This document shows positions 10,405 through 24,436 of a DNA stretch of 29,829 nucleotides, piece by piece. Each line of letters begins with the position of its first letter. The stretch's first letter is position 1. The notes beneath the pieces are model-generated. The model saw only the letters and a program-made list of their open reading frames with translations. It was not told where the DNA came from and ran no database searches. Position numbers and translations under genes: made by a program. Origin of the DNA: a virus; IMG/VR virus record IMGVR_UViG_3300030102_003900, positions 1 through 29,829 of that record; one strand, written 5' to 3'.

Positions 10405-11163
10405 TCAGTCAACTTTATAGAATTCGTCTTTGACTTTGCCTGAATACTTATATTCACCGATATGGCTTATTTCTTCATCACATAAAGCATGAATTTTACC
10501 ACCTATTGATGTCCATAATTTACAAAAATAGAAGTCTTCACCCATGTACGTTTTATTTTTTGGACTCCAATAAGTGTCAAAAAAGTTATAATAGTTAGGT
10601 CTATCTATAAGCTCTCCATTGACTAATGTCTTTTGACTTATAATCAATTCTTTATAATGCTCTTTCAATTTATCAAATGCTGATCTTTTAATCATCATCA
10701 TACCTGTAGGTCCTTTAGATACTTCTATAAAACCATCTTTAGGTCTAATGTCATTTGTATCTGGTATTTCTATAGGAAACAAATGTCCCATACTGTGAAT
10801 ACTATCATCAGGTCTTGTTTCAAAATCTTTTCTAAATTTAGCATCTGTCTTTTGTTTCATTGGATAAGGTATTAAAGATACTTCGTGAGGTGATTTAAAC
10901 AATCTATAAACCGATCTTGTACTAAACTCAATATCAGAATCTATAAATAACATCTGATCTGCATCAGAATTCATAAATGCAGAAGCACACAAATTTCTAC
11001 CTTGTGTAACTAATGATGACTTCATTAATTGAAATGTAATTTTTGTTTTATTTAAAATACATTCTTTTTGTAAATCTAAACATGCTTTCATGTAGTGAAT
11101 TGAAACTTCAGAATGCACAGGGGTGCAGACCATCATATGATTTTTATTTATTTCGTTGGACAT
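10405..11163 (-). CDS. GT-A fold glycosyltransferase (GT2-like)
   Basis: The 252-residue protein has an N-terminal strand MMVCTPVHSEV (10-20), an RN pair in TQGRNLCASAF (53-63), and a DxD metal/nucleotide-sugar motif as D75-S-D77 in FIDSDIEF. Later come GPTGMMMIKRSAF and GEDFYFC, typical of the acceptor side of small GT-A enzymes in marine phages. It would transfer a sugar from a nucleotide donor in the cytoplasm. The start at 11163 is supported by GAGGAG six bases upstream and lies inside the end of the GT-B gene (20-base overlap), so the two are probably translated together. Acceptor unknown: virion protein, phage DNA or host glycan are all possible. Confidence 0.85.
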   Translation of the reverse strand: MSNEINKNHMMVCTPVHSEVSIHYMKACLDLQKECILNKTKITFQLMKSSLVTQGRNLCASAFMNSDADQMLFIDSDIEFSTRSVYRLFKSPHEVSLIPYPMKQKTDAKFRKDFETRPDDSIHSMGHLFPIEIPDTNDIRPKDGFIEVSKGPTGMMMIKRSAFDKLKEHYKELIISQKTLVNGELIDRPNYYNFFDTYWSPKNKTYMGEDFYFCKLWTSIGGKIHALCDEEISHIGEYKYSGKVKDEFYKVD

Positions 11164-12088
11164 GAATTACTCCTCTTAAAAAACTTTCCCAATTTTTAGC
11201 AGTGTTTCGCCAATCATAAAATCTTTTATAATATTCTTGTTGAAATTTAAATACATTAGTTAAATCATTTTGTAATATCTTTTTTGCTTCGACACAACAT
11301 TCAGCTACTTGTTGAGCTAATTTAGCTTTATCTCTTGTAAAAGGAATATAGATAGGAAACTCTGCACAGGTTTCAAACAATGCACCGAGATCCGTGGTTA
11401 TTAATAATTGACCAGCTGCTAATGATTCCATAGCTGATATACAAAATGTTTCTTCCCATATACTAGGAAAACAATTTACATCATATTCTTTTAATTTTCC
11501 CATTAAGGTTTTATGATCACAGTAACCCATATAATTTACATTAGGTAAATCTTTTGCTTTTTGATAAAGGTCTAAATATTCTTTATCATTTTGATTATGA
11601 AACTGTTTTCCATAAATAATCGTGCTCGAATAAACATCTAAAGTAATATCTGGATCTCTATCTTTTAATGAGTCCATCGCTGCTAAAGCAACTTCTAATC
11701 CTCTCCAGGGTGTTGAGATGTAACACATTTTTAATTTTTTCTTAGGTGTAAAATCTGTTTTTAATAGTAATTCTTCATAGTCAATTCCATTTTTTATAAC
11801 TGTACATTTATCTTCAGGAATTTTAAAAAACATACGATATTTTTCATAGCTCCAATGACTATTAAAAACATACCAATCATATTTAGAATGATTCTCTTTA
11901 TTTTGAAACCAAGGGGCTAGGTTAGGTTGATCATAAGAATTTTTTAACCAAAGTATATTTGCTCTAATAGGATCTAAAGGTTCTTTTTCTGGTATAGATG
12001 TAGTTATCTGTACAGAATCTAGTATACCTTGATTCGCATACTTTTTAAGATAAGCTAATTGTAATTCGGTTCCACCTGCTGGTTGCAT
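11144..12088 (-). CDS. GT-B fold glycosyltransferase (GT4-like)
   Basis: The 314-residue protein has GGTE at 5-8, where GT4 enzymes have their first glycine loop, so little of the usual N-terminal strand is present. VIKNGID at 97-103 ends the N-terminal domain. The nucleotide-sugar site is seen as E213-x7-E221 in EETFCISAMESLAAG. A strand near 119-126 (LKMCYIST) starts the C-terminal Rossmann domain. The protein is short for the family (usually 350-400 residues), mainly at the N-terminus. The ATG at 12088 overlaps the preceding stop as TAATG. The partner gene downstream is a GT-A enzyme, so the phage has two unrelated sugar transferases in tandem. Substrates unknown. Confidence 0.86.
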   Translation of the reverse strand: MQPAGGTELQLAYLKKYANQGILDSVQITTSIPEKEPLDPIRANILWLKNSYDQPNLAPWFQNKENHSKYDWYVFNSHWSYEKYRMFFKIPEDKCTVIKNGIDYEELLLKTDFTPKKKLKMCYISTPWRGLEVALAAMDSLKDRDPDITLDVYSSTIIYGKQFHNQNDKEYLDLYQKAKDLPNVNYMGYCDHKTLMGKLKEYDVNCFPSIWEETFCISAMESLAAGQLLITTDLGALFETCAEFPIYIPFTRDKAKLAQQVAECCVEAKKILQNDLTNVFKFQQEYYKRFYDWRNTAKNWESFLRGVIHVQRNK

Positions 12089-12786: not shown

Positions 12787-12947
12787 GATAAAAAATAATT
12801 AAAAGCTTCGTTATCGTTTTTTTGATCTTGTTGGTATGAAGTGTTTAATTGATTTTGTAAAGTTTCCAAAGCTAAATTTATTTGTCTGAAAGAATCAGTA
12901 TTAAATTCTTTTGGTGGTTCAGGTAAAAATACTTGTACTTTAGCCAT
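12783..12947 (-). CDS. 54-residue conserved marine-phage miniprotein
   Basis: The frame runs from ATG at 12947 to TGA at 12783, overlapping the stop of the nozzle gene (TAATG) and the start of the next gene (ATGA). The sequence begins MAKVQVFLPEPPKEF and ends in a Gln/Asn-rich helix with TSYQQDQKND and NYFLS. I recall very similar short proteins next to tail genes in uncultured marine phages, always without known function. It is soluble and probably one or two helices. Confidence 0.75.
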   Translation of the reverse strand: MAKVQVFLPEPPKEFNTDSFRQINLALETLQNQLNTSYQQDQKNDNEAFNYFLS

Positions 12948-14860
12948 TATCTTCTACCATCAGGTTGTATATCAAATCTAAATTGACCAAATCTCCAACT
13001 TTCATTTGTACTATCATTTTCAATTTTTACAGCAGCTAATCTAGCTCTTGCTCTTGTGTCTACCTTATCCGTAGTTGAGTTAATTGTAAATGGCCCTAAA
13101 GGAGAACCCTGTTGAACATTAGCAGGATAGTCTCTCAATTCTAAAGTTACTTTTGCATTTCCATTAATATATTTAAAATCAGGAATAAATCTTCTTACTT
13201 TAATAAAAAACTCCCCGTCTCCTTGAGCATCTAAATCAAAGTCACCTGATTTTATAAATGCATTAATAGCAGTGGTTGTACCATTAGCTAAAACTTGATT
13301 AGTGCCTTTTTCATGATTAAATACTCTTGAAGCTCCATTAGATACTCCTTGAACTGTCGGAGTTGTAGGAGCAAGAGAGCTTGTAAATTCTGTTGCTATA
13401 GGATCTTCAAATACATGTTTGTCTTCATATGTGGTTCTCGCTAAAGAACCTGTTGTCCAAGTTTGTTCAGCATAGTTATAAGTTACCATTCGATCAATAA
13501 AATTTGAACTGTTACTTGCATAAAACCAAGTAATTTCAGAGTATAAACCATTGTGCCCAGCACAAGTTAATTCTGAACCATTTATAAAATTAAATCCTGG
13601 TGCACTATCATTTGTTTGAAAAACAAAATCTTCTACCAAACAAGGTAAAGCTTTTACTGTACCATCAAATATAAAAAACCCACCTGAATCTGACATCCAA
13701 TACACAGCACCATTAGCATAAACAATTGACTTTTGACCCATACAACCACAATTTGATCCTACTTGTCTTATACTGAATGTAAAAGGTGGTCCTACAAATT
13801 GCATTAAATAAGCTGAAGTATCAGTTAAAATTAATATATAATCTTTTGCTTTTGCAGCTCCAACTATTTTTGTTCCGCTATCAATTCTAAAAGAACCTGC
13901 TGTGTTTGTGGATGTTGCTGTGTAATCTGTTAGTGTTTCTTGATCTGAAAATCTTATAAACATTTTATCTTGTGTCGCTGTATTACCAATTGTTGTTTCT
14001 GTTCCCAAAATAATTAAGTGTCTGTCTCTATCTGAGACCATACTCATCACGGATTTGGTAGGAGCATTTGTTATTATCGTTGCTCTATTAGAAACACCTG
14101 AATTTGGATCCCAAGAAAATGTTTCACCATTTTTAATAGTTGCTATTAATAATTCACCATAATTGTCTAATGACCATGCTCCAGGATCTAACACTGCGTC
14201 TGAAGTTGTTCTCGGTGTGCCCCAAGTTGATCCACCCCATAAGGCTGTGCCCCAACCAAAACCAAAAGCTTGTTGTAATGGCCCTATTTTGTAATAAGGT
14301 TTTGAATCTAGTGTTCCATCGTTTGTTGCTCCTGTTCCTGTTTCTGCAGACGGCATTAATATGGTGAATGTAGTATTGGTAGGTGCTAATTGAACTTCAA
14401 ACAATACATTATCAAAATCAGAAGCTACGTAAGCTGTTTGTCCAGCTGTAAACGATCCAGCATTTTCAAATGTAAGTATGTCACCTGGTTCGAGGCCGTG
14501 GTTCGTGGGACTTGTAATTGTAACCGTTCTAGAACCGTTTGTGGTTGTAATATCACATCCTGTTTTTGCTAAAGATGGATTAAAAGGTGTGATGTCATAA
14601 TAATCATCGCCATCATAAACATACAAAATTTTGTTTGTGCCAAAAGCGATATACCTTCTGCCCTCTAGATCAGCCCAACTGTGTGAGGCTCTTGCTGCAC
14701 CTATTAGTTGTTTGTCCATAATCTCAGACCAACCACCGATCTTTTCGGGCATAGCATATCTAAATCTAACGAAGTCGCCATCTACCCATTGGTTTTCAGC
14801 TCCCGAAGCAGATGCTTGTTTATTAAATCCTGGTGCAAATTGTACTTTTGTTAAAGGCAT
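12947..14860 (-). CDS. tail nozzle-like virion protein (T7 gp12 position)
   Basis: The 637-residue protein begins MPLTKVQFAPGFNKQ, followed by WVDGDFVRFRYAMPEKIGGW. This opening is typical of a large marine podovirus structural family often placed at the tail tubular protein B / nozzle position. The body is beta-rich with repeated strand-turn units, including TNGSRTVTITSPTNHGLEPGD near residue 108, and Trp/Gly-rich turns such as FGWGTALWGGSTWG near 200. The size is close to T7 gp12 (about 790) but shorter. It follows the oxygenase cassette after a 76-base gap with promoter-like and inverted-repeat sequences. I am confident in the family and less so in the exact tail position. Confidence 0.8.
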   Translation of the reverse strand: MPLTKVQFAPGFNKQASASGAENQWVDGDFVRFRYAMPEKIGGWSEIMDKQLIGAARASHSWADLEGRRYIAFGTNKILYVYDGDDYYDITPFNPSLAKTGCDITTTNGSRTVTITSPTNHGLEPGDILTFENAGSFTAGQTAYVASDFDNVLFEVQLAPTNTTFTILMPSAETGTGATNDGTLDSKPYYKIGPLQQAFGFGWGTALWGGSTWGTPRTTSDAVLDPGAWSLDNYGELLIATIKNGETFSWDPNSGVSNRATIITNAPTKSVMSMVSDRDRHLIILGTETTIGNTATQDKMFIRFSDQETLTDYTATSTNTAGSFRIDSGTKIVGAAKAKDYILILTDTSAYLMQFVGPPFTFSIRQVGSNCGCMGQKSIVYANGAVYWMSDSGGFFIFDGTVKALPCLVEDFVFQTNDSAPGFNFINGSELTCAGHNGLYSEITWFYASNSSNFIDRMVTYNYAEQTWTTGSLARTTYEDKHVFEDPIATEFTSSLAPTTPTVQGVSNGASRVFNHEKGTNQVLANGTTTAINAFIKSGDFDLDAQGDGEFFIKVRRFIPDFKYINGNAKVTLELRDYPANVQQGSPLGPFTINSTTDKVDTRARARLAAVKIENDSTNESWRFGQFRFDIQPDGRR

Positions 14861-14936: not shown

Positions 14937-15476
14937 TTAAATTGGTATCAAAGATATATTGATGTTTTTATTATATTTTCTACACACCTCTTTATAATCC
15001 ATTATATTAAATACGTCGAAGGCTATGGTAACTCTAACCTTTTTAAATGGTTTTAAAACAACAACTTTATGTCTTTTATCACTTGGACCAATGTATAGAA
15101 GACCTATTTTATTTTTTATTTCTTGATCCTCAAATATGGTTTTTGTTGATTCTGGATTGATAGATAAATATCCATGGCATCTACAGTTTTCATGATGATG
15201 CCAATCTAGGACTTCATTTTCTTGATGAAAATTTAACCAGGCCTGCATCCACAAAGGTTCTTTTGTTTTTAAATATTTTCTTATTTGTTTTTTTAATTCA
15301 AAAAATAACTCATAGAAGTAAGGCGACCCAAAGGTTAAATTAAATATGTTATACACTTGATAATTCCAGGTTGAGGATTGATTAGGAAACTTAATATCAA
15401 ATCTTTCTTTGGCTATTAAACAATCCTTATAAAATTGTTTGTGATTTTGTTGTATTATTTTAAGAGTCTGTATCAT
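14937..15476 (-). CDS. 2OG-Fe(II) oxygenase-like protein, HHxE-type
   Basis: The 179-residue protein has WHHHENC at 92-98, then HGYLSINP at 101-108, NKIGLLYIGPSDKRHKVVV at 122-140 and VRVTIAFD at 147-154. This order fits the double-stranded beta-helix oxygenase fold: metal ligands H94-x-E96 (or H93-x-H95), a second His at H136, and R148 for 2-oxoglutarate. Similar sequences occur in cyanophages and marine phages. It is the last gene of the cassette, starting 17 bases inside the preceding oxygenase gene. The metal motif has Glu rather than the usual Asp. Substrate unknown. Confidence 0.7.
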   Translation of the reverse strand: MIQTLKIIQQNHKQFYKDCLIAKERFDIKFPNQSSTWNYQVYNIFNLTFGSPYFYELFFELKKQIRKYLKTKEPLWMQAWLNFHQENEVLDWHHHENCRCHGYLSINPESTKTIFEDQEIKNKIGLLYIGPSDKRHKVVVLKPFKKVRVTIAFDVFNIMDYKEVCRKYNKNINISLIPI

Positions 15477-15954
15477 AATAATTAAAATTAATTACCACTC
15501 TAAACTCTTGATCAGTGCAAGAGCTGCCTGTGTGTTCTTCCTTAGAATTAAATATTACCATTTTATTTTCCTCACTGCGAACTTTAGATTTTTTAAATCT
15601 AGTATAACCATTGTTAGTGTTTATATAAAGAATAGCCGTTTTTTGTTTAGTAGTTTTTCTAAGAGGGTTGTCTATATGAAAACCATGTTCTACTATTTTT
15701 GATGTTCTATATATAAGATTAGCTTTAATTCTAATTAATGCTCTTAGTTTAATTTTATCTAAAGCAGGTAAAAGTAATTTATAAAAAGGACTTGTAATTT
15801 CATTTGCTTTATAAAAATTATGGATAAATTGAAATTGATTATCGCCCGCTCTAACTACTCCCTCTGCAAGAAACCATGGAAAATAAGCTCCTAACATGTT
15901 TTCTTTAAGCTCTAAAAAATTTTGTGAATCTAAAAAATTAGGTATGATTTTCAT
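15460..15954 (-). CDS. 2OG-Fe(II) oxygenase-like protein, phage type
   Basis: The 164-residue protein carries HGFHIDNP with H93-x-D95 as the iron pair, KTAILYINTNNGYTRF at 105-120 as the central strands, and FNSKEEHTGSSCTDQEFRVVINF at 135-157, giving distal H141 and the 2-oxoglutarate-binding R152. The combination of NTNNGYT and HTGSSCTD with RVVINF is characteristic of a small oxygenase type that is very common in cyanophages and pelagiphages. All expected ligands are present, so it is probably active. It overlaps the next gene by 17 bases and the methyltransferase by 17 bases. Confidence 0.88.
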   Translation of the reverse strand: MKIIPNFLDSQNFLELKENMLGAYFPWFLAEGVVRAGDNQFQFIHNFYKANEITSPFYKLLLPALDKIKLRALIRIKANLIYRTSKIVEHGFHIDNPLRKTTKQKTAILYINTNNGYTRFKKSKVRSEENKMVIFNSKEEHTGSSCTDQEFRVVINFNYYDTDS

Positions 15955-16651
15955 TTTTCAAACTTCTTACAAGAACATCTTGTGGTTCTATTTTTATCCA
16001 AGCGATTCCATTTTGATGTGCACTGTTATCTCTTTTTCTTATGTTTAATAAAGTAAATTTACTAGTAGACACTAAATGTTTTAGTTTATCTTTTTCTGGA
16101 CATAGCTCATACATAGTTTCAGGTATTTTTCCTTTATGTAAAGTCTCTACTAACATTGTTAACATACTGTATGCAGGCCAAAAACAAGGTGCACTATCAA
16201 CAAAAACATTACAGTATTTATTTACTTTAGGTAAAATAGAAGCAAACATATCTAATAAAGCTAAAGGTTCTTTATAAAAATCAAAAAATATAAAATCTAA
16301 TTTTTTTACTTTAAGTTTGTTCATGTAAATATCTCCAAACTCAAATTTAATTTGTTTACTTATATTTAATTCTTTAATCTTGTTTTCTATAAAAGATTTA
16401 TATGTTCCTTCTTTTCCATATCCTTTCCAATGTTCTCCGTTATCAAATGTATATACTTTACCAAAACCATTTTCTTTAAATGCTTGAGCTGCCATAAAAG
16501 AAGTGCAACCTAAACCAGTTCCAAACTCTATAAAGTTTTGAGGTTTTTTCATTTTTAATAGCGAATACATAAATAAAGCTGTTGCGTATGTGTCATACAT
16601 CTCACCTTCTCTTGCGATGTATTCTAATACATTTTTAAAATTATCATTCAT
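15938..16651 (-). CDS. class I SAM-dependent methyltransferase
   Basis: I start this 237-residue protein at ATG 16651, eight bases inside the end of the preceding gene. The frame is open to 16708, but the codon there is TTG with no ribosome site. FIEFGTGLGCTSF at 40-52 is motif I (SAM-binding glycine loop), YTFDNGEHW at 67-75 holds the acidic end of strand 2 (D70), and LDFIFFDFY at 118-126 is the strand 4 region. The enzyme would use S-adenosylmethionine; acceptor unknown. It resembles small class I enzymes such as those acting on sugars or small O-nucleophiles rather than DNA: no DPPY/NPPY motif is seen. It is embedded among 2OG oxygenases, which suggests the same substrate or pathway. Confidence 0.85.
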   Translation of the reverse strand: MNDNFKNVLEYIAREGEMYDTYATALFMYSLLKMKKPQNFIEFGTGLGCTSFMAAQAFKENGFGKVYTFDNGEHWKGYGKEGTYKSFIENKIKELNISKQIKFEFGDIYMNKLKVKKLDFIFFDFYKEPLALLDMFASILPKVNKYCNVFVDSAPCFWPAYSMLTMLVETLHKGKIPETMYELCPEKDKLKHLVSTSKFTLLNIRKRDNSAHQNGIAWIKIEPQDVLVRSLKNENHT

Positions 16652-17225
16652 AAGTTGAAATATTAAATGAAATAGATATTCTATCTTTCTTAGATAAGTT
16701 TGCTTCAACTCTATGTTTTAACCACGATGGAAAAAGTAATAATTCACCCTCGACATTATTAAAACTCCAAATAGTAGAATTGTATTTGTTAAACTCAGAA
16801 CATTGTTCTCTTTGATCTATATAACATCCAACTTCTATGTCTCTTTCAAAAACTATTGACCCAGAATTTTTTGGACACACAACATAAAAAACACCAGAAA
16901 ATAAAGACTTAGGATGAGTATGAGTTACATTATAATCTTTATAGTTATTTATATTTATCCATAAATTACATATTTCTAATTTTTTAGTTAATGCATATAA
17001 TTTTTTAAATTCATTTGCTACAGTTAGTATTTGATTGCAAAGTTCTTTTAATATTCTATCTTCTATCTTTATATCCAAACTTTGCCAGCCACCTCTGTTA
17101 CTAAACTTTCTACCGCCTTTTTTCTTTTCTTGATAACATACCTTAGTTAATTTTTTTAAATCAATATTTAAGGGTGTTATTCCAACAGGGGTTGGAAGTA
17201 TTTCATGAACTATGGTTTCTAACAT
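16644..17225 (-). CDS. 2OG-Fe(II) oxygenase, TIGR02466-like (copy A)
   Basis: The 193-residue protein opens with an N-terminal segment containing KFSNRGGWQS (40-49). It has VTHTHPKSLFSGVFYV at 100-115, giving H102-x-H104 as the metal pair in place of HxD, and LLLFPSWLKHRVEANLS at 162-178, giving H171. RISISFN at 182-188 supplies the 2-oxoglutarate Arg (R182). This is the pattern of the family I know as TIGR02466 / 2OG-FeII_Oxy_5, often placed beside methyltransferases and other oxygenases in marine phages. It resembles the product of 18059-18694 along its whole length. The start overlaps the coiled-coil gene by seven bases. Confidence 0.87.
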   Translation of the reverse strand: MLETIVHEILPTPVGITPLNIDLKKLTKVCYQEKKKGGRKFSNRGGWQSLDIKIEDRILKELCNQILTVANEFKKLYALTKKLEICNLWININNYKDYNVTHTHPKSLFSGVFYVVCPKNSGSIVFERDIEVGCYIDQREQCSEFNKYNSTIWSFNNVEGELLLFPSWLKHRVEANLSKKDRISISFNISTYE

Positions 17226-17446
17226 TTATCTATAAGCTCTTTATTAATCCTTCTTAACTTTGCAACCTTGTTACAAAATTCTTCGTTTATTTTTAAAACA
17301 GTTTGTAATTGAAGTTCTAATGTTTCTATTCTTTCTTTTAATTCTTTATTTAACATTACTTCAGATTTTTTAACTTCCGTTTCCATATTCAGTCTACTCT
17401 TTAAATCTAGATTTTCTTCTTCTAATTGTTTTAGTCTATGTTCCAC
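17219..17446 (-). CDS. 75-residue coiled-coil protein with GTG start
   Basis: Nearly the whole protein is a coiled coil with heptad-like Leu/Ile spacing (RLKQLEEENLDLKSRL, then LKERIETLELQLQTVL). There is no membrane segment. The start codon is GTG at 17446, supported by AAGGAGG at 17453-17459, six bases away and one of the best ribosome sites in the cassette. It overlaps both neighbouring oxygenase genes (11 and 7 bases). A strong ribosome site suggests high expression compared with its neighbours. It may be a scaffold or multimerisation partner for the oxygenases, or a fibre stalk piece; neither is shown. Confidence 0.75.
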   Translation of the reverse strand: MEHRLKQLEEENLDLKSRLNMETEVKKSEVMLNKELKERIETLELQLQTVLKINEEFCNKVAKLRRINKELIDKC

Positions 17447-18062
17447 TTTTATCCTCCTTGTAATACAAACCTAAACCTAAAGTAGGTCTAGTATCATATT
17501 TATTTTTTATATTGTTTTTGTTCTTTTTATTAAAGTGTAGAAAAACTTGAGTGCATTTATTTCCTGTAAAAGGTTCTCTCCAATGTTCTAGATCGCATCC
17601 TCTGTAGACCAACATGTCTCCAGGTAATAAATTCACTTGTACGTTTTTACTTTTTTTATTTTTAATAAAAATAGGCCAAGGATCTCCTGCAATATTTAAA
17701 GTAGTAGAAAATTCACAATGTTTTCTATCTGTGTGTTTTTCTAAAACATTTCCTTTTATATAAATTCTACAATAACTATAATTTTCTATTAAAGGACATC
17801 CTACTTCTTTTTGCATTTTATCTTTTAAAATTAATAACAATATATCTAAAGCAGGATCACCGTACAGATTATATATTTTTTTATCTGGAATTTGCGAATC
17901 ACCCCAACTTCCATAATCTTCATTTAAAGGAGATACAGATTTTGTATTGGTTAAGAAAGTAAATATGTCTTTTTTTAAAGATATATATTTATCTAAAAAA
18001 TGTATTAAACTTTTATCTAAAGCTTTTTTAATTACGCTGTATCCATCTTCTTTAAAACTCAT
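17436..18062 (-). CDS. 2OG-Fe(II) oxygenase-like protein, HxD present, canonical Arg absent
   Basis: The 208-residue protein has YSYCRIYIKG at 95-104, then LEKHTDRKHCEFSTTLNI with the iron pair H110-x-D112. VNLLPGDMLVYRG at 143-155 precedes H160 in LEHWREPF. After GNKCTQVFLHF (167-177) the position where an Arg or Lys usually binds 2-oxoglutarate holds Thr/Gln. The GDPWPIFIK stretch (126-134) is typical of a phage oxygenase type I have seen next to the TIGR02466-like genes. The gene overlaps its upstream neighbour as ATGA. Fold call good; activity with 2-oxoglutarate less sure because of the missing Arg. Confidence 0.8.
   Translation of the reverse strand: MSFKEDGYSVIKKALDKSLIHFLDKYISLKKDIFTFLTNTKSVSPLNEDYGSWGDSQIPDKKIYNLYGDPALDILLLILKDKMQKEVGCPLIENYSYCRIYIKGNVLEKHTDRKHCEFSTTLNIAGDPWPIFIKNKKSKNVQVNLLPGDMLVYRGCDLEHWREPFTGNKCTQVFLHFNKKNKNNIKNKYDTRPTLGLGLYYKEDKSGT
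17453..17459 (-). promoter_or_regulatory. strong ribosome binding site deciding a GTG start
   Basis: AAGGAGG on the minus strand, six bases before GTG 17446. It lies within the coding end of the preceding oxygenase gene. Most other genes in the cassette have no visible Shine-Dalgarno sequence and rely on overlap. Confidence 0.75.
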
Positions 18063-18694
18063 TTGATTTCTTTAAGTTTTATATTTAAAGCAAAACTAAT
18101 TCTCTCCTCATTTGATAGATTTTCTTTTACAGAATGTTGTAAATAACTTGGAAACATAACCATCATTGATTCTTCTGGTGTTACTTTCCAGCTCATAGAG
18201 TTCAAAGCATGTTGTGCTGTCATTTCAAAATTAAAATAAGAACACCCATGATTGATATAGGAGTTTTGATAAAAAGTTATATCTCCACAATTTTTTGGAG
18301 CTTTAACATAAAAGACAATACTAAAGTCACTGCCACTATGAGTGTGCATATGATTTTCATGTCCTTTTCTATTTATAATAAACCAAGGTTCTTCAAAAGT
18401 AACTTGAATATCATTTTTAAAATGAAACAATCTTAAATTATCGTACACCATAGGCTGTATAAATTTTACAAATTCTTCTGCTAACTTATTTTTTAGTAAA
18501 GGTTTAGAATGAAAACCCCCTAAATTACTAAATTCTGTTTTTAAGTGTTTTTCTTTTTTTTCTAATTTTTTAACTAAAGCATATAATTTTTTATTAATGC
18601 TTTTTATTCCTTTTCTTATTTTTATATCTTGTCCATCACAATCAAGTTTTTTTATAAACAATGGAACTCCAAATATATTTTGCATTTGATTCAT
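18059..18694 (-). CDS. 2OG-Fe(II) oxygenase, TIGR02466-like (copy B)
   Basis: The 211-residue protein matches copy A (16644-17225) motif for motif: FSNLGGFHS at 55-63, HMHTHSGSDFSIVFYV at 115-130 (H117-x-H119), GDITFY at 137-142, MFPSYLQHSVKENLS at 180-194 (H187), and RISFALNI at 198-205 (R198). The region between the second strand and the distal motif is longer than a minimal fold, as usual in this family. A second Met at residue 4 (18685) could also be the start; the first overlaps the preceding stop as ATGA, so I prefer it. The two copies are diverged and separated by an oxygenase and the coiled-coil gene. Confidence 0.87.
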   Translation of the reverse strand: MNQMQNIFGVPLFIKKLDCDGQDIKIRKGIKSINKKLYALVKKLEKKEKHLKTEFSNLGGFHSKPLLKNKLAEEFVKFIQPMVYDNLRLFHFKNDIQVTFEEPWFIINRKGHENHMHTHSGSDFSIVFYVKAPKNCGDITFYQNSYINHGCSYFNFEMTAQHALNSMSWKVTPEESMMVMFPSYLQHSVKENLSNEERISFALNIKLKEIK

Positions 18695-19155
18695 ACGTAC
18701 CAGCCTCCTAACATGTATCTCTCTTTTATTTTAACTTTATTAACCTTATGTAACATATTTCCATTTTTAAACAAGATTAACTTACCAGCCTCTGGTTTAA
18801 TTTTTTTAATGCCCACCAACTCTGTCTCCCCTCCTTTGTAATCATCATTTAAATATATAAAAAATCCACATTCATCTCCCTCATCATAGTGAGAATTCAT
18901 ATAAGAACCCTTAGGCCATAACACTATTTCATAATTTGAAAGCACGCATTTATTAAAAAATTTTTTTACATATTTATTCTCAATAACATTTAATATTTTA
19001 TTAAAAATAGAATAATGTATGTTTTTTATTTTTAAGGGTTTGGTTCCTGTAGTTTTAGAACCATGAATATAAGTTTTATCTAAATTATCTTTATAGATAT
19101 TTATTATTTCTTTACATTCTTTTTTAGATAAAAATTCTTTTTCTTCAAAATACAT
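18691..19155 (-). CDS. 2OG-Fe(II) oxygenase, prolyl 4-hydroxylase-like
   Basis: The compact 154-residue protein begins with an FLSKKECKEII helix (8-18), the usual opening of prolyl hydroxylase-like phage oxygenases. LWPKGSYMNSHYDEGDECGFFIYL contains H89-x-D91, followed by the conserved DDYKGGETEL turn at 104-113, GKLILFKNGNMLHKV with H136, and ERYMLGGWY with R146. All four functional residues are in place. Bacterial and phage members hydroxylate proline or other side chains, but many act on unknown substrates. Its start abuts the preceding stop (TAA-ATG) and its end overlaps the next start as ATGA. Confidence 0.9.
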   Translation of the reverse strand: MYFEEKEFLSKKECKEIINIYKDNLDKTYIHGSKTTGTKPLKIKNIHYSIFNKILNVIENKYVKKFFNKCVLSNYEIVLWPKGSYMNSHYDEGDECGFFIYLNDDYKGGETELVGIKKIKPEAGKLILFKNGNMLHKVNKVKIKERYMLGGWYV

Positions 19156-19794
19156 TTATTTAAAAGGGTATCCTAAACACCATATAACTAAAGAGTGTCT
19201 AATGCCTTGTGTTATAGGTTTAACCCTATGCCAAACATGAGATGGAAATACAACTATAGAACCTCTTTTCTGTAGGTGTTTACATTTTAAAATTTTACTA
19301 GAGGGTTTTTCGGTTATAGGATCATAGTCTCTAGGGTCAAATTCTAATAAACCTCCCTTATAATCGCTTGCATCTGATAAACTTATAATACATGATAACT
19401 TTCTTATCTTACCTTTAAAATTAATATCTGAAGAACTATTGGGTTCAGGTAAAGAATCACAGTGCCATCCATAGTGTTGACCTTTTTTATATTCAGTAAA
19501 TTGAATAGATTCACACCAGTCCCAATCAAAATTCCATTTAGCAGATGAGTTGGCTATAGTTATGTATGGACATATTTCATCATAAAGAAATTTATCATTC
19601 ATAAAAACTATGTTTGAATTTCTTTTCTTTTTTAAATCTTTGATTTCTTTTTTATTTAGCTTTCTTTTTAAATCAGTGTATTTTCCAATATTACCTAAAT
19701 TTAATTTTCTTTGTTTAGCTAGTTTTACAACTTCATCACAAAATTTATTTGGCAAAACAGATTCAAAAAACCAATAGTGTTCTTTTAAAAGCAT
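19156..19794 (-). CDS. 2OG-Fe(II) oxygenase, PKHD/PiuC-like
   Basis: The 212-residue protein has IQFTEYKKGQHYGWHCDSL at 97-115 with H111-x-D113, RKLSCIISLSDASDYKGGLLEF at 131-152, and RGSIVVFPSHVWHRVKPIT at 177-195 with H189. GIRHSLVIWCLGYP follows, with R199. This is the classic signature of PKHD-type hydroxylases related to PiuC and widespread in T4-like cyanophages and pelagiphages. A highly basic insertion at 42-60 (KRKLNKKEIKDLKKKR) is a local oddity. It is coupled to the preceding gene by a TAATG overlap. The family is firm; the natural substrate in phages is unknown. Confidence 0.92.
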   Translation of the reverse strand: MLLKEHYWFFESVLPNKFCDEVVKLAKQRKLNLGNIGKYTDLKRKLNKKEIKDLKKKRNSNIVFMNDKFLYDEICPYITIANSSAKWNFDWDWCESIQFTEYKKGQHYGWHCDSLPEPNSSSDINFKGKIRKLSCIISLSDASDYKGGLLEFDPRDYDPITEKPSSKILKCKHLQKRGSIVVFPSHVWHRVKPITQGIRHSLVIWCLGYPFK

Positions 19795-20465
19795 TATATT
19801 CTCTTGTGTTCTGTTCCATGTTTTTTTAATAATGAACCATCAGTCCTACTTAAATCATAAAAAAAACTAATTAAAGTAAGTCTTTCTTCATTATCATCAT
19901 TGTCAAAATTATCGACTCCATGAGATTGATTTGAATCAAATAAAATCATTCTGTTGTAAATAGAATTAAACGAACATGTTTTTGTAAAATTAGAATTGTT
20001 ATCTTTTAATGCATTTTGATAAATTTTTGAACTAGATGTTTTATTTTCTTTTATATATTTCCATTTAACAGTTGTGTTTTTATCCATCTTATAATTAAAA
20101 AAATTATTATTACTAAATAAAGATGTTCCGTTATTTGGATTTTTAGATAAATAAATAATACAAGTAAATTCTGCTTGGTCATCTTTGTGAACCCAACCAG
20201 GTCCTCTATGATCTTCTGGTTTTATTTTCTGAAAAAATTGAGAACAGTTCCATTGTAAATTTTTATATTCGTTTGGAAATATTGAAGCTACTATTTTTTT
20301 ACTTGAATAAAGAAATAATTCATAATGAAGATTACCAACGTGCTCACATCTTTTTCCTGGCCATTTACCTGTTTTATCTTTTTCATAGGGAAAAGAGTTG
20401 GCTACTTCAACAACCTTATCAGGGTTATCAAAAAAATTATCTATACAAACAGTTGGCCAAATCAT
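19794..20465 (-). CDS. 2OG-oxygenase-fold protein, DUF6445-like
   Basis: The first gene of the cassette, 223 residues. It opens WPTVCIDNFFDNPDKVVEVA (3-22), then has GPGWVHKDDQAEFTCIIYL at 88-106 with H93-x-D95, NNGTSLF at 111-117, NRMILFDSNQSHGVDNF at 171-187 with H182, and ERLTLISFF at 194-202 with R195. The opening and the SHGVDNF/RLTLISFF ending match the phage and bacterial family I know as DUF6445, which has a 2OG-oxygenase-like fold. A poorly conserved Asn/Lys-rich insert spans 124-165. The 46-base AT-rich gap before it holds no convincing promoter, so it may be read through from the fibre genes. Confidence 0.82.
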   Translation of the reverse strand: MIWPTVCIDNFFDNPDKVVEVANSFPYEKDKTGKWPGKRCEHVGNLHYELFLYSSKKIVASIFPNEYKNLQWNCSQFFQKIKPEDHRGPGWVHKDDQAEFTCIIYLSKNPNNGTSLFSNNNFFNYKMDKNTTVKWKYIKENKTSSSKIYQNALKDNNSNFTKTCSFNSIYNRMILFDSNQSHGVDNFDNDDNEERLTLISFFYDLSRTDGSLLKKHGTEHKRI

Positions 20466-20511: not shown

Positions 20512-20958
20512 TTATGCTAAATCCCAGCTAGAAGTAGCTGAATTCCAAAGATAATTATTAGAGTCTGTTCCTGTAGATTTCCAAGTTTGATCATCTTCTG
20601 ACCATTCTTTAACAGGTAATTGAATATTTTCGTTTACGTTTTGAACTGTTGGATATGCAACAGGTGCCTCCCAATCATCATCAGCATTTAAAGTCCATGA
20701 AGGATAAGGTTGAGGTCTAATAAACTTATCTTTTACAGAGTCGTAAGTATCTCCTACACCTGCGTATTGTTTTCTAAAATTATTATTGTAAGAAGTTTGT
20801 TTCCAAACTCCACCTTTAAATAAATTTTGGCAATAGCTCTCACCATCAGAGTGCATATCATTTTCACCTAAAGGTCCAGCTGCTGTTGGAACATCATTTC
20901 CAACTACTACAACTTTTTCTACGATATCGTTTTCATCTAATTTTGCAAAATGTGCCAT
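20512..20958 (-). CDS. conserved fibre-region virion protein (148 aa)
   Basis: The 148-residue protein begins MAHFAKLDENDIVEKVVVV and contains VWKQTSYNNNFRKQYAGVGDTYD (about 51-73), followed by FIRPQPYPSWTL and WEAPVAYP. I recognise this arrangement from many marine myo- and podoviruses, where it lies beside fibre genes and is annotated as a hypothetical or structural protein. A fibre-assembly role would fit but is not shown. It starts five bases after the glycine-rich adhesin gene, and its stop is followed by the gap before the oxygenase cassette. Confidence 0.8.
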   Translation of the reverse strand: MAHFAKLDENDIVEKVVVVGNDVPTAAGPLGENDMHSDGESYCQNLFKGGVWKQTSYNNNFRKQYAGVGDTYDSVKDKFIRPQPYPSWTLNADDDWEAPVAYPTVQNVNENIQLPVKEWSEDDQTWKSTGTDSNNYLWNSATSSWDLA

Positions 20959-20963
20959 AAATC

Positions 20964-21827
20964 CTACGTATAAGTTAATGTACCAGAGACCGTAAATGTT
21001 GCATACGTATCTGATCCATCAGTTGCTGTTGTATTAGTTCCAGGAGCTACAGCTAATCTAGGTGCAAGAGATGTTGGATATCTTAATACTACGATACCGC
21101 TTCCTCCAGCTCCAGCGTTTTGGTATTGCTCATTCGCGCCACCTCCGCCGCCTCCTGTATTGGTGCTGCCTGGCTGACCTGCAGAACCTGGTCTAGAAGA
21201 ACCGTTTCCGCCTCCTCCGGATCCGCCTGATCCACCTGTGTAACCTGGCCAATAAACACCGCCTCCGCCGCCTCCAGCTCTAGTTACTGGCGAACCTGTA
21301 ATGGAAGAAGCTGATCCTGCTCCACCTGGACCACCTGCCCCTTGGCCACCGCCAAGAGATTGTCCATCTGATCCAACTTGATTGGCTCCACCACCACCAG
21401 CTTGTCCACCAAAGCCTGGCTGTAAACCACCTCTGTTTCCTTCTGGTGGAGTGTATCCTCCAGCGTTTCCTGTCCCTCCAGGACCTCCTCCGCCTGATCC
21501 ACCTGGCGATCCGTTTTTACCACCGCCACTAGATGCAAAACTTCCTATGCTTGAAGCTACTCCAGGAGTTCCATCCCCTGAGTTACCAGCTTGTCCGCCT
21601 GTACCACCGCCACCGATAGTGATTGTCGTTTCTGCTTCTGTTATAGTTAATTTTGTTCCACCTGGATATGAAGTTCTATAGCCGCCTGCTCCGCCACCAC
21701 CAGAAAAAATCCAGTTGGCACCGCCACCGCCTGCAATAACGAGATAGTCAACATCAAAAGCTACTCCGCCTTTACTGTAACCAAAACCTGAGGCTGATGC
21801 TGCTCCAAATGTTCCTATAATTGGCAT
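20964..21827 (-). CDS. glycine-rich tail adhesin / receptor-binding protein
   Basis: In this 287-residue protein, residues about 33-235 are extremely Gly-rich with interspersed Ser, Pro, Asn and short blocks of up to six Gly (GGGGG motifs near 115, 183 and 222). It opens with FDVDYLVIAGGGGAN (24-38), a start typical of glycine-rich domains of phage adhesins. The C-terminus has a small beta region (GIVVLRYP, then TFTVSGTLTYT). Polyglycine-II helix bundles of this kind form the receptor-binding tip in T-even gp38-type adhesins. AGGAGGAG at 21835-21842 gives a strong ribosome site. The base composition is much richer in G and C than its surroundings because of the GGN codons. Confidence 0.82.
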   Translation of the reverse strand: MPIIGTFGAASASGFGYSKGGVAFDVDYLVIAGGGGANWIFSGGGGAGGYRTSYPGGTKLTITEAETTITIGGGGTGGQAGNSGDGTPGVASSIGSFASSGGGKNGSPGGSGGGGPGGTGNAGGYTPPEGNRGGLQPGFGGQAGGGGANQVGSDGQSLGGGQGAGGPGGAGSASSITGSPVTRAGGGGGGVYWPGYTGGSGGSGGGGNGSSRPGSAGQPGSTNTGGGGGGANEQYQNAGAGGSGIVVLRYPTSLAPRLAVAPGTNTTATDGSDTYATFTVSGTLTYT

Positions 21828-21848: not shown

Positions 21849-22919
21849 TTACGCAAACTGTGTGAGAGATGCTAAAACTGTAAATGTTGCATCTGCTGTT
21901 TTTATAACAGTATAAGAATAAACATCAAGTGAATTAGTATTACCTGCTGATGGTGCAGATCCGCCCTGCCATTCAGGAGTAACTCCTGAGCCATCTACTT
22001 GTACAGCTGAATTGTAATAAGCTGTTCCACCTTGTTTTACTATATGAGCCACTGTTAAAGATTCTCCAGTATCCATAATTGAGTTTAAAGAATTTGATCC
22101 ATCACCTCTAATGTTTAATGTCCAGTTTCCTGAAGCATCTGTAGTGAAGTTCCAAACTGCTTGAGTAATTACATCATAGTTTACTGTTCCTGTAGCAGCC
22201 GTTGCTTCAGTAGTAACTTTTTCAGCAGTTTGTTGAATTTTTGCAGCACCTAACGATACTCTTCCTACACCTTTTCCAGCAAAACTTAAATCAATGTTAG
22301 AATCACCACCCGTTGCAGTGACGCTCGGAGCGTTACCTGTTGCAGCGTTAGTTACATCAATTTGGTTTACTGCAGATGCTGTAGTTTGAAATGTAATTTG
22401 TTCATTACCGTTTTCGTCTTGTATTCCATGAGCATCATCAATTTTAATATTGTTGTCATTAGTGTCTAAATCCCCACCAAGCTGTGGTGAAGTATCTTCC
22501 ACGATATCTTTTAAGAAAAATACATCTACTGCGTTTGTTCCGTCAACATAAATTACGTGAGTTTTTCCAGCAACTAAAGTTACACCTGTACCACTCGCTG
22601 TTTTAAAAGTTAAAGTGTTTCCAGATCTTGTTGTTGAGTCTTGCACGATGTAAGTTTTTTCAATTCCATCTGGACAAGTTACTACTCTTGTTCCTGCTAA
22701 AGTTCCTGTTAATTTAAGTACAGCATTTCTTGCATTTGATAATGTTCCATTGGTCATTGCTAAAGTTACATCTGATGATGCACAATCGATAGCTTCAAAA
22801 CCTGCTACTGCTTGTTGTACTAAATTTAAGTTTGTATTTGTTTTATCACCCCATGTACCAGCGTTTTCGCCAGTTACCATAAGTTCTAATTTTAAATCTG
22901 TTGAATAACTTGATGCCAT
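21849..22919 (-). CDS. tail fibre / stalk protein
   Basis: The 356-residue protein opens MASSYSTDLKLELMVTGENAG with TWGDKTNTNLN (22-32). This opening is found in many marine phage fibre proteins and is thought to be the virion-attachment part. The rest is beta-rich with repeated Thr/Ala/Val/Asn runs (LKLTGTLAGTRVV, NTLTFKTASGTGVTLVAG) and a region DTNDNNIKIDDAHGIQDENG near 152-171 typical of fibre shafts. No peptidase or chaperone tail is seen. It follows the best promoter of the window and precedes the glycine-rich adhesin, suggesting shaft plus tip. Confidence 0.8.
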   Translation of the reverse strand: MASSYSTDLKLELMVTGENAGTWGDKTNTNLNLVQQAVAGFEAIDCASSDVTLAMTNGTLSNARNAVLKLTGTLAGTRVVTCPDGIEKTYIVQDSTTRSGNTLTFKTASGTGVTLVAGKTHVIYVDGTNAVDVFFLKDIVEDTSPQLGGDLDTNDNNIKIDDAHGIQDENGNEQITFQTTASAVNQIDVTNAATGNAPSVTATGGDSNIDLSFAGKGVGRVSLGAAKIQQTAEKVTTEATAATGTVNYDVITQAVWNFTTDASGNWTLNIRGDGSNSLNSIMDTGESLTVAHIVKQGGTAYYNSAVQVDGSGVTPEWQGGSAPSAGNTNSLDVYSYTVIKTADATFTVLASLTQFA

Positions 22920-22975: not shown

Positions 22976-24436
22976 CTAGGCTACTAGTTTCCAAGTTGGT
23001 GCTACTCCTGGGTCTACTAAAGCCCATGTATTAACTCCTATTATACCTGTTGAAAAGCTACTTGTCACTCCAGTAGGTGTTACTAAAACACTTAACCCTG
23101 CTGTAGGTACACCCATAACTGAAGATAATTGAATACCAGAAGGACTAGCTATTGTATTAGGTGTAGCGTCTTCATTTCCAAGTGAAATACTTACTTGTTG
23201 ACCTGTTAAAGTTAAATTTGCATTTGCAGTAATAGATATTGTGCCTGTTGTCGAATTTAGTTGATTTCCTGTGATGTCTGTATCTGGTTCAGGATCAACA
23301 GTTCCTTCAGACATTGACATACCCATATTAGTTGTTGCTGAACCCCAAGATTGGGCACCCCAACCAATAACTGCACCCCAGCCTGGAGTACTTTGTGCGG
23401 ACAGCTCTACAGTAACAGAAACATCAGTGCTTTCATTTCCTAAACTTATACTTGATGAAACACCTGTTACATCAACAAATCCCCAATCACCTTCTGCACC
23501 CCAAACTTCATCACCCCAAGCATCTCTTCCCCAACCTTGTTCATTTTGCCCAACAGCTGTTCCAAGATTTGCAGATAATTGTTGTCCTGTAGGAAAAACA
23601 TCAGTTCGATCAGCTACGCTTCCTTCTGAAATATTTAATGCACTTAAAGGGTTTTCCCTTAAGAAAATTTCTGTAGCTGCTGTTACACTTACACTTCCTG
23701 TAGTTGAAGTTAACTGTTCTCCTGTTTCAGGAACTTGCTGACCGATAGCTACTCCTGGAATAAAAGGACCACCCCATTCTGTTGTCGAAGCATTCCATGT
23801 GCTTGTACCCCAAGCTTCTTTTGCACCAAAACCAATTGTTAAATCTAATCCTGTAAGAGTAACATCTATTGCTGATTCACCCCAATTTTCAAAACCCCAT
23901 GTGTCTGAACCCCAACCTTGTTCAGGAAATGCTTCAACAGTTCCTAATGAAGTATTTAAAGTTACAGCAGATGGAGATGCAAAAACTTCATCTTGATTAC
24001 CCCAAGAATTAACATTCCATGCTTGTGCTCCCCAAGTTTCTTGAGTGATATCAAAAATACCTCCCATGCCAATACCATGAACATAACATAAATAATAAAA
24101 ATCTGTTTCTGATGAAGGAGTTACTTCAACGTATCTGGTAGTTGCAGCATTGAAGGTTGTGGTATTTGTATAATTTGTTTGATTACTGGAACCATCCAAA
24201 TAATAAGTTACACCCGATGAGATTATTCCTGATGTGTTTTGTGTAGTTGAAAATATTAAAGGGTGGTTATTATTTGAAGAGTCACTTTGATCAAACCGTA
24301 GAGTTGCTCCATTAACCCAGTTTACAGTTCCAGGACCTGTAGAATTTCTTGCACCATCTAGATAAAAGACGTTGCCTGTTCCACCACCATAAAGGTTACC
24401 CGATGCTACGGTAACTGTATAAGTTAATTCTGCCAT
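22976..24436 (-). CDS. virion protein with cupredoxin-like domain and Trp-Gly repeats
   Basis: The protein has 486 residues in two parts. Residues 1-130 look like a cupredoxin fold: NNNHPLIFSTT gives H58, and YYLCYVHGIGMGG gives C117-x2-H120-x3-M124, together the His-Cys-His-Met set of a type 1 copper site. Residues 131-486 consist of beta repeats, each built from a Trp-Gly part (GWGSDTWGFENWGE at 174-187, GWGRDAWGDEVWG at 301-313, GWGAVIGWGAQSWGS at 352-366) and an Ig-like part (for example LTGQQVSISLGNED at 410-423). This suggests a fibre-like surface protein. TAGGAG lies before ATG 24436. Copper binding is predicted, not known; similar His/Cys/Met domains recur in marine phage structural proteins. 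Confidence 0.78.
   Translation of the reverse strand: MAELTYTVTVASGNLYGGGTGNVFYLDGARNSTGPGTVNWVNGATLRFDQSDSSNNNHPLIFSTTQNTSGIISSGVTYYLDGSSNQTNYTNTTTFNAATTRYVEVTPSSETDFYYLCYVHGIGMGGIFDITQETWGAQAWNVNSWGNQDEVFASPSAVTLNTSLGTVEAFPEQGWGSDTWGFENWGESAIDVTLTGLDLTIGFGAKEAWGTSTWNASTTEWGGPFIPGVAIGQQVPETGEQLTSTTGSVSVTAATEIFLRENPLSALNISEGSVADRTDVFPTGQQLSANLGTAVGQNEQGWGRDAWGDEVWGAEGDWGFVDVTGVSSSISLGNESTDVSVTVELSAQSTPGWGAVIGWGAQSWGSATTNMGMSMSEGTVDPEPDTDITGNQLNSTTGTISITANANLTLTGQQVSISLGNEDATPNTIASPSGIQLSSVMGVPTAGLSVLVTPTGVTSSFSTGIIGVNTWALVDPGVAPTWKLVA

Follow-up and report, generated by a model that had tools for sequence, protein, structure and literature searches.

A hypervariable island of putative protein-tailoring enzymes beside the tail-fibre genes of HTVC023P-type pelagiphages

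Phages rich in 2-oxoglutarate (2OG) oxygenases have been described before. HTVC023P-type phages carry eight non-orthologous 2OG oxygenase genes, often nearby though not adjacent, together with ferrochelatase partners (PMC9599517), and a single cyanophage, S-SCSM1, encodes 24 such genes, whose function was not investigated in that study (PMC9602691). For the 2OG oxygenase, carbamoyltransferase, prnA and 'ferrochelatase domain' genes of cyanophages, modulation of 2OG levels or DNA repair has been proposed (PMC3037559). Modification of a phage's own virion proteins also has precedent, post-translational methylation being known from structural proteins of phages, the tail fibre among them (PMC13288928). 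Here we analyse a block of ten genes, g1 to g10, at positions 14937 to 20465 of a 29.8-kb IMG/VR virus record (IMGVR_UViG_3300030102_003900, the whole of which is called the window). The record is a fragment of an HTVC023P-type pelagiphage. We propose, with a probability of roughly 45%, that the block belongs to a hypervariable island of tailoring enzymes modifying the phage's own host-recognition proteins, its putative substrates.

A contiguous block of oxygenase-like genes

The ten genes lie on the minus strand from 20465 to 14937 with no intergenic gaps and with overlaps of 0, 1, 4, 4, 7, 8, 11, 17 and 17 nt. The initial annotation had described about 5.5 kb devoted to one enzyme class without gaps, with eight oxygenase-like genes of at least five types among ten. 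The coding-dense block bears this out, and Pfam, NCBIfam and PHROG profiles together with predicted structures assign eight genes to seven PHROG families of 2OG-Fe(II)-oxygenase-like proteins. The other two encode a coiled coil (g6) and an S-adenosylmethionine (SAM) methyltransferase (g8).

g1, 19794..20465, minus strand: DUF6445-type 2OG-oxygenase-like protein, 223 amino acids (aa), H93-K-D95...H182...R195
g2, 19156..19794, minus strand: PKHD/PiuC-like 2OG-Fe(II) oxygenase, 212 aa, near-core
g3, 18691..19155, minus strand: prolyl-4-hydroxylase-like 2OG oxygenase, 154 aa, H89-Y-D...H136...R146
g4, 18059..18694, minus strand: TIGR02466/2OG-FeII_Oxy_5 protein, 211 aa, H117-T-H119...H187...R198
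g5, 17436..18062, minus strand: GDPWP-type 2OG-like oxygenase, 208 aa, near-core
g6, 17219..17446, minus strand: predicted coiled coil, 75 aa, recurring in cassettes (11 loci)
g7, 16644..17225, minus strand: second TIGR02466-type protein, 193 aa, H102-T-H104...H171...R182
g8, 15938..16651, minus strand: class I SAM-dependent methyltransferase, 237 aa from the probable ATG (256 aa from TTG 16708)
g9, 15460..15954, minus strand: NTNNGYT-type 2OG oxygenase, 164 aa, H93-I-D...H141...R152
g10, 14937..15476, minus strand: HxH-type double-stranded beta-helix (DSBH) protein, 179 aa, H93-x-H95...H136...R148

The oxygenase assignments are predictions from profiles for all eight proteins, with predicted folds in addition for g5 and g10 (AF2 models searched with Foldseek and VIA); the other six match profiles of families defined by the DSBH fold. 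A lack of this fold in most of the eight, a possibility raised with the initial annotation, did not occur. The profile matches are PF20043 (DUF6445; 1.6e-13, 51.6 bits against a cut-off of 24), PF13640 (4e-4) and phrog_1644 (2e-34) for g1; PF13640 (2e-14) and phrog_61 for g2, with a sub-threshold match to PRK05467/PiuC and weak matches to PDB 3dkq/PiuC; and PF13640 (5.9e-11) and phrog_2297 for g3. Both g4 and g7 match phrog_81, PF13759 (4.5e-20 and 3e-23) and TIGR02466 (81.5 and 99.4 bits, above the cut-off of 62.5), and H117, H119, H187 and R198 of g4 are conserved (alignment A6). For g9, phrog_274 (3e-48) is accompanied by PF13640 (2.4e-5, just below cut-off), its sole meaningful Pfam match; this and its HxD...H...R pattern do not fit the endonuclease V label. 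Profile matches of g6 are weak and coiled-coil-like only. The methyltransferase g8 matches PF13578 above cut-off (3.9e-6) and probably starts at ATG 16651, because a near-identical copy in an independent contig (L175, below) reads as 237 aa.

A metal triad of the form HxD...H is present in g1, g2, g3, g5 and g9, and a three-histidine version, HxH...H, in g4, g7 and g10; these residues are invariant or nearly invariant in the family alignments. A candidate 2OG-binding arginine lies at the expected place in seven of the eight, as first noted (g1 R195, g2 R199, g3 R146, g4 R198, g7 R182, g9 R152 and g10 R148), with g5 as the exception. The motif alone is weak evidence, because 15% of shuffled oxygenase sequences of equal composition match HxD/E/H...H...R; chance matches are ruled out by the profiles and folds, which carry the claim.

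The g5 protein has no Pfam match and belongs to phrog_2954 (9e-47), a family that PHROGs, GenBank records and two papers call 'ferrochelatase'. Across 45 aligned relatives H110-x-D112 and H160 are invariant, and the region of the usual 2OG-binding arginine holds an invariant Q172 and also H176. Its AF2 model (pLDDT 95) aligns to 2OG oxygenases across nearly its full length: Foldseek returned the Pseudomonas putida prolyl-4-hydroxylase 4j25 (4e-10), with AlkB only further down the list, and VIA gave Z scores of 15.9–17.3 to SnoN, PHD2 and prolyl-4-hydroxylase (P4H), with 822 of 1000 chains at Z of 8 or above. The fold neighbours include protein prolyl hydroxylases, one of them solved together with EF-Tu. 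Given the invariant ligands and the model matches to prolyl-4-hydroxylase, PHD2 and SnoN, g5 is predicted to be a 2OG-type DSBH protein. No Pfam or NCBIfam chelatase profile matched g5 and the model fits 2OG oxygenases, which rules out a ferrochelatase.

For g10, matches to phrog_2696 (7e-38), phrog_81 (4.5e-6) and, partially, PF13759 (1e-4) are joined by invariant H93-x-H95, H136 and R148 in the family alignment, so the HHxE type first assigned to it gives way to HxH. Its model (pLDDT 93) reaches a VIA Z score of 16.5 to the TIGR02466-like 3bvc/2rg4 and about 13 to PHD2. Its enzyme class is less certain than its predicted fold, since the top raw Foldseek matches are plain cupins. In total, PHROGs 274 ('DNA endonuclease V'), 2297 ('DNA endonuclease'), 2954 and 1644 ('minor coat protein') appear mislabelled, their window members being 2OG-oxygenase-like, and the labels have spread into GenBank and papers.

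The array is found again in L175, an IMG/VR contig carrying the same genes at 94–99.8% DNA identity, which rules out an assembly artefact. The 637-aa anchor protein at one end of the block is 55% identical to HTVC023P gp72, 53% to its counterpart in HTVC027P and 46% to that in phage 023Pt_psg01, and closely related cassettes lie on contigs of the Pelagibacteraceae single-cell genomes AG-404-L13 and AG-422-I02. As the conserved genes match Pelagibacter phages and related cassettes occur on these single-cell contigs, the host is very probably SAR11. We also considered a recent foreign origin of the cassette and set it aside: GC content is 0.26 in the cassette versus 0.36 in the anchor, and lower in 73 of 73 cassettes, but GC at third codon positions equals that of the rest of the window, hence GC says little. 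A scan for promoters and terminators gave signals at or near the shuffle background.

Gene turnover at a slot between fibre genes and anchor

The block fills a slot bounded on one side by the fibre/adhesin genes F486-F356-F287-F148, which directly precede it, and on the other by the anchor, a conserved virion gene.

F486, 22976..24436, minus strand: variable tail-fibre-module protein, no family match
F356, 21849..22919, minus strand: conserved tail-fibre-module protein, phrog_31104/5906
F287, 20964..21827, minus strand: glycine-rich adhesin-like protein (Gly_rich_2; PF21722, 2.2e-12), hypervariable, candidate substrate
F148, 20512..20958, minus strand: variable small fibre-side protein (MAHFAK...PYPSW...), phrog_7759, candidate substrate
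Anchor, 12947..14860, minus strand: conserved virion 'stabilization' protein closing the slot, phrog_3287
Glycosyltransferase (GT4 type), 11144..12088, minus strand: past the anchor; PF00534 (1.3e-12), phrog_2170

We infer an adhesin role for F287 from its position in the fibre module; a PDB sequence search with it returned just one spurious halogenase match. Relatives of F148 occur in cyanomyoviruses, HTVC008M and HTVC033P, and the glycosyltransferase is a possible further tailoring enzyme.

Two IMG/VR scans, one with the anchor and one with F356, yielded about 150 further loci; each contributed its top 80 out of at least 598 matches, and the sample leans to close relatives. Seventy-seven distinct loci, among them the window itself and a small number of named phages, span the region from fibre module to anchor. 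Within the 2OG superfamily, Jackhmmer labels are prone to drift, and the counts are therefore of 'oxygenase-like' genes. Such genes occupy the slot in 72 of the 77 loci (mean 5.2 per cassette, maximum 10) and account for 403 of 554 genes inside it versus 21 of 772 elsewhere, so related phages do not show the scattering without co-occurrence that had been named as contrary evidence. Among 84 sampled members scanned singly, PF13640 (38) and PF13759 (31) were the commonest Pfam families. A possible metal triad, HxD/E/H...H, is kept in 378 of the 403 cassette members, and 23 belong to a ligand-less family.

The other cassette genes mostly encode tailoring enzymes or small proteins. Flavin halogenases occur in 17 loci (a Trp halogenase profile matches at 4e-102) and O-carbamoyltransferases in 11, alongside several sulfotransferase types and methyltransferases; partner enzymes suited to new hydroxyls or aromatic rings thus recur in relatives. 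The nearest solved relatives are VirX1 for the halogenases and GdmN, novobiocin carbamoyltransferase and TobZ for the carbamoyltransferases.

Enzyme combinations differ in almost every locus. Clustering the 530 cassette genes from 70 loci at 40% identity gave 177 groups, 119 of them singletons, and the number of groups rises with added loci without saturation (45 for 10 loci, 177 for all 70). Near-core genes are g2 (58 of 70 cassettes) and g5 (51), which occur together in 50, adjacent in 16 loci and at most two genes apart in 36. Membership is lower for g9 (23), g1 (10) and g7 (9), and g3, g4, g8 and g10 have no further member at this identity across the 70 cassettes. These counts rule out a fixed operon moving as a unit, and the single multistep pathway suggested at first is not supported. 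The location is fixed while the gene pool in it is open and reshuffled, a pattern more in keeping with many modifications made in parallel than with a single linear pathway. The genes are nevertheless under purifying selection: the window block and L175 differ by 84 synonymous and 26 non-synonymous changes, and the median dN/dS (omega) of 22 other ortholog pairs is 0.17.

The cassette diverges at the pace of the fibre/adhesin genes, in contrast to the conserved structural genes on its flanks. In 533 pairs of loci with similar anchors, median similarity was 0.81 and 0.77 at two upstream positions, 0.74 for F356 and 0.79 for the anchor, compared with 0.21 for F486, 0.00 for F287, 0.15 for F148 and 0.11 for the cassette. 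Cassette similarity correlates with that of F287 (rho 0.20, p 0.001), F148 (rho 0.23, p 0.005) and F356 (rho 0.26, p 0.004) but not with that of the equally adjacent anchor (rho -0.14), and the F287 and F148 signals persist when conditioned on anchor and F356. The cassette thus evolves with the fibre genes and not with the backbone genes, the correlation being modest (rho about 0.2) and open to a contribution from linkage.

In other marine phages, too, related suites adjoin tail genes. HTVC008M has an F148-like protein next to 'ferrochelatase' and oxygenases, and a Trp halogenase lies a few kilobases away; in Mosig, oxygenases, 'ferrochelatase' and 'endonuclease V' are flanked by tail-fibre genes on one side and neck genes on the other; S-RIM44 has two Trp halogenases, oxygenases, 'minor coat protein', 'endonuclease V' and 'ferrochelatase' beside neck genes; and S-SSM5, P-RSM4, S-MS29 and S-CAM8 combine a carbamoyltransferase, 2OG oxygenases, 'ferrochelatase' and an F148-like protein. 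A related suite also lies beside tail genes in HTVC033P.

Several further observations concern cassette content. A family of about 167 aa without metal-ligand histidines (for example L068:205-708, L071:1799-2302 and L003:22549-23052, the last beside HTVC023P gp65; alignment A5) is absent from the window; it is profile-related to TIGR02466-type oxygenases (hhalign probability 68, E 5e-5) and in 23 of 33 cases a g2-type oxygenase directly follows it, the two genes usually overlapping by 14 nt; it is possibly a pseudoenzyme partner of g2. Two sulfotransferase-bearing cassettes include a weak APS-kinase-like protein and a CTP_transf_like nucleotidyltransferase (L036:9240-9972, L041:9255-9972), which might let the phage provide its own sulfate donor, PAPS. 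The third commonest cassette gene, 'u110' (L048:9578-9958 and 35 other complete cassettes, mostly beside the anchor), encodes a protein of about 105–126 aa that contains SFKTEAEKMVFD and has no family match. Small ParB-N-like proteins recur (L064:6760-7131, L069:1768-2181), several at the anchor-side end. In Mosig EXVC030M (L194, 9984-11220), a haem oxygenase and a phycocyanobilin:ferredoxin oxidoreductase directly follow the oxygenase cassette; the SAR11 host of Mosig has no phycobilisomes. A 275-kb contig of the SAR11 single-cell genome Pelagibacterales SAG-MED28 (L190) carries a g5 relative and another oxygenase.

Candidate substrates and rival explanations

In the reading we favour, the eight 2OG/Fe(II)-type oxygenases and the methyltransferase would be made from a translationally coupled block, late in the structural region as gene position and overlaps suggest, and would act as post-translational modifiers of the phage's host-recognition proteins, most likely F287, F148 and the variable fibre. 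The oxygenases may hydroxylate side chains such as Pro, Lys or Asn/Asp; in relatives, judging from family chemistry, O-carbamoyl-, sulfo- and methyltransferases could cap the resulting hydroxyls and flavin halogenases modify Trp or Tyr. Many parallel modifications are favoured because the gene pool is open and reshuffled at a fixed place. With its own enzyme set, each lineage might alter the surface chemistry of its adhesin not just through fibre sequence but also by exchanging enzymes, and could thereby change receptor choice or escape host resistance. The stronger version, that this pelagiphage group, the most abundant in the ocean, varies its receptor-binding surface through combinations of post-translational modifications, is tentative, with about one chance in three by our estimate; there, 3–10 oxygenases with halogenases and carbamoyl-, sulfo- and methyltransferases would decorate the adhesins, and host range would evolve by enzyme swapping plus sequence.

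Several observations weigh against the proposal. The g5 relatives of S-ShM2 and ACG-2014f lie among replication or metabolic genes, away from fibres, and many of the 24 S-SCSM1 oxygenases lie among replication genes, with seven around tail fibres. F148-like proteins lack nearby oxygenases in 7 of 13 non-HTVC023P-type phage loci examined, and the HTVC027P cassette lies on the opposite strand, so late co-transcription is not universal. Part of the fibre–cassette correlation could come from plain linkage, and BLAST gives unreliable similarity values for F287, which is rich in glycine. In 144 tests of fibre/adhesin residue composition against the presence of halogenases, carbamoyl- and sulfotransferases, nothing robust emerged, the two best p-values resting on 5–6 related loci.

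It is conceivable, if rather unlikely, that the enzymes act on host targets, namely translation factors, ribosomal or regulatory proteins, or surface glycans and lipopolysaccharide, for takeover or superinfection exclusion, with turnover reflecting an arms race. The bacterial P4H solved with EF-Tu among the g5 fold neighbours, the glycosyltransferase close to the block and the hypervariability typical of host-interaction islands would suit this. However, structural genes surround the island, whose similarity follows the fibre-side genes more than the anchor, a co-variation that leans towards a phage product as substrate; moreover, related suites are found in phages of SAR11 and Synechococcus, whose surfaces differ, and a shared host-surface target is less likely because these hosts come from two phyla. 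A small-molecule role, whether 2OG or O2 drawdown or a metabolite as substrate, is improbable. Every enzyme would use up 2OG, and metabolic readings have been published for 2OG/NtcA modulation in cyanophages, as proposed by those authors (PMC3037559), and in the context of iron metabolism for HTVC027P (PMC12753301), during whose infection iron uptake goes up; yet a single efficient enzyme would be enough to drain 2OG, with no call for eight dissimilar ones plus halogenases, carbamoyl- and sulfotransferases in a cassette of hypervariable content.

We regard DNA hypermodification or repair, in which bases are oxidised and then decorated by transferases to evade restriction, as similarly improbable. 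Base oxidation and capping chemistry occur in phages, S-SCSM1 oxygenases and the S-ShM2 g5 relative lie among replication genes, and HTVC023P-type phages have separate DNA-modification genes. Against this, the best profile and fold matches are PKHD/P4H/TIGR02466-type, AlkB appears only low in the g5 list, TET/JBP families are absent from the profile and fold matches, and the block adjoins fibres rather than replication genes. That the proteins are jelly-roll components of the virion and not enzymes is very improbable: the phrog_1644 and phrog_3639 labels and the location among structural genes would fit, but the metal ligands are widely retained in cassette members, and the reported S-SCSM1 virion proteome names no oxygenase despite the 24 in its genome.

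Most of the variable coding beside the fibres appears to consist of tailoring enzymes, hidden since databases mislabel four of the seven families. If modification of the phage's own host-recognition proteins is correct, the slot would also be a rich natural source of small enzymes that modify proteins. The proposal also offers a testable common reading for the many 2OG oxygenases in phages, the target of VirX1 and the carbamoyltransferases near cyanophage fibres.

Comparison with known systems

While the wealth of 2OG oxygenases in phages was already known, the contiguous island, the partner enzymes and the fibre-like tempo appear to be new. A search of open-licence papers for hydroxylation of phage tail fibres found nothing, and in the same literature the tail-fibre-side cluster of T4-like marine phages has not previously been read as one island. 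The closest system, in PMC9599517, concerns the same phage group and locus families, read there as iron/haem partners; halogenase, carbamoyltransferase, sulfotransferase and tail fibre are not mentioned in that paper, nor are the fibre-side slot and its hypervariability. Here, by contrast, arrays are contiguous and reach ten genes, and the 'ferrochelatase' is itself a predicted 2OG-type DSBH protein.

S-SCSM1 and S-CREM1, with 24 and 10 2OG oxygenases (PMC9602691, PMC9964418), resemble the window in carrying very many dissimilar oxygenases per phage, but those of S-SCSM1 are dispersed, many among replication genes, in a genome of about 230 kb versus about 60 kb in the window's group. The T4-like marine phages S-SSM5, P-RSM4, S-CAM8, HTVC008M, Mosig and S-RIM44 share with this group a carbamoyltransferase or Trp halogenase, several 2OG oxygenases and the 'ferrochelatase', and in the first four the tail-fibre-side cluster includes an F148-like protein; they differ in being myoviruses, with sets that are smaller or in another order. 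VirX1, the flavin-dependent halogenase of cyanophage Syn10 (PDB 6qgm) described for biocatalysis, is the closest solved relative of the cassette halogenases, matching over the full length (E 1.7e-101). Finally, the protein prolyl hydroxylases (P. putida P4H 4j25/4iw3, PHD2 and PiuC/PKHD) are like g5 in predicted fold and HxD...H, and g2 and g3 resemble PiuC/PKHD and P4H by profile; they differ in sharing 10–15% identity and in that g5 has its invariant Gln (Q172) near the usual Arg site.

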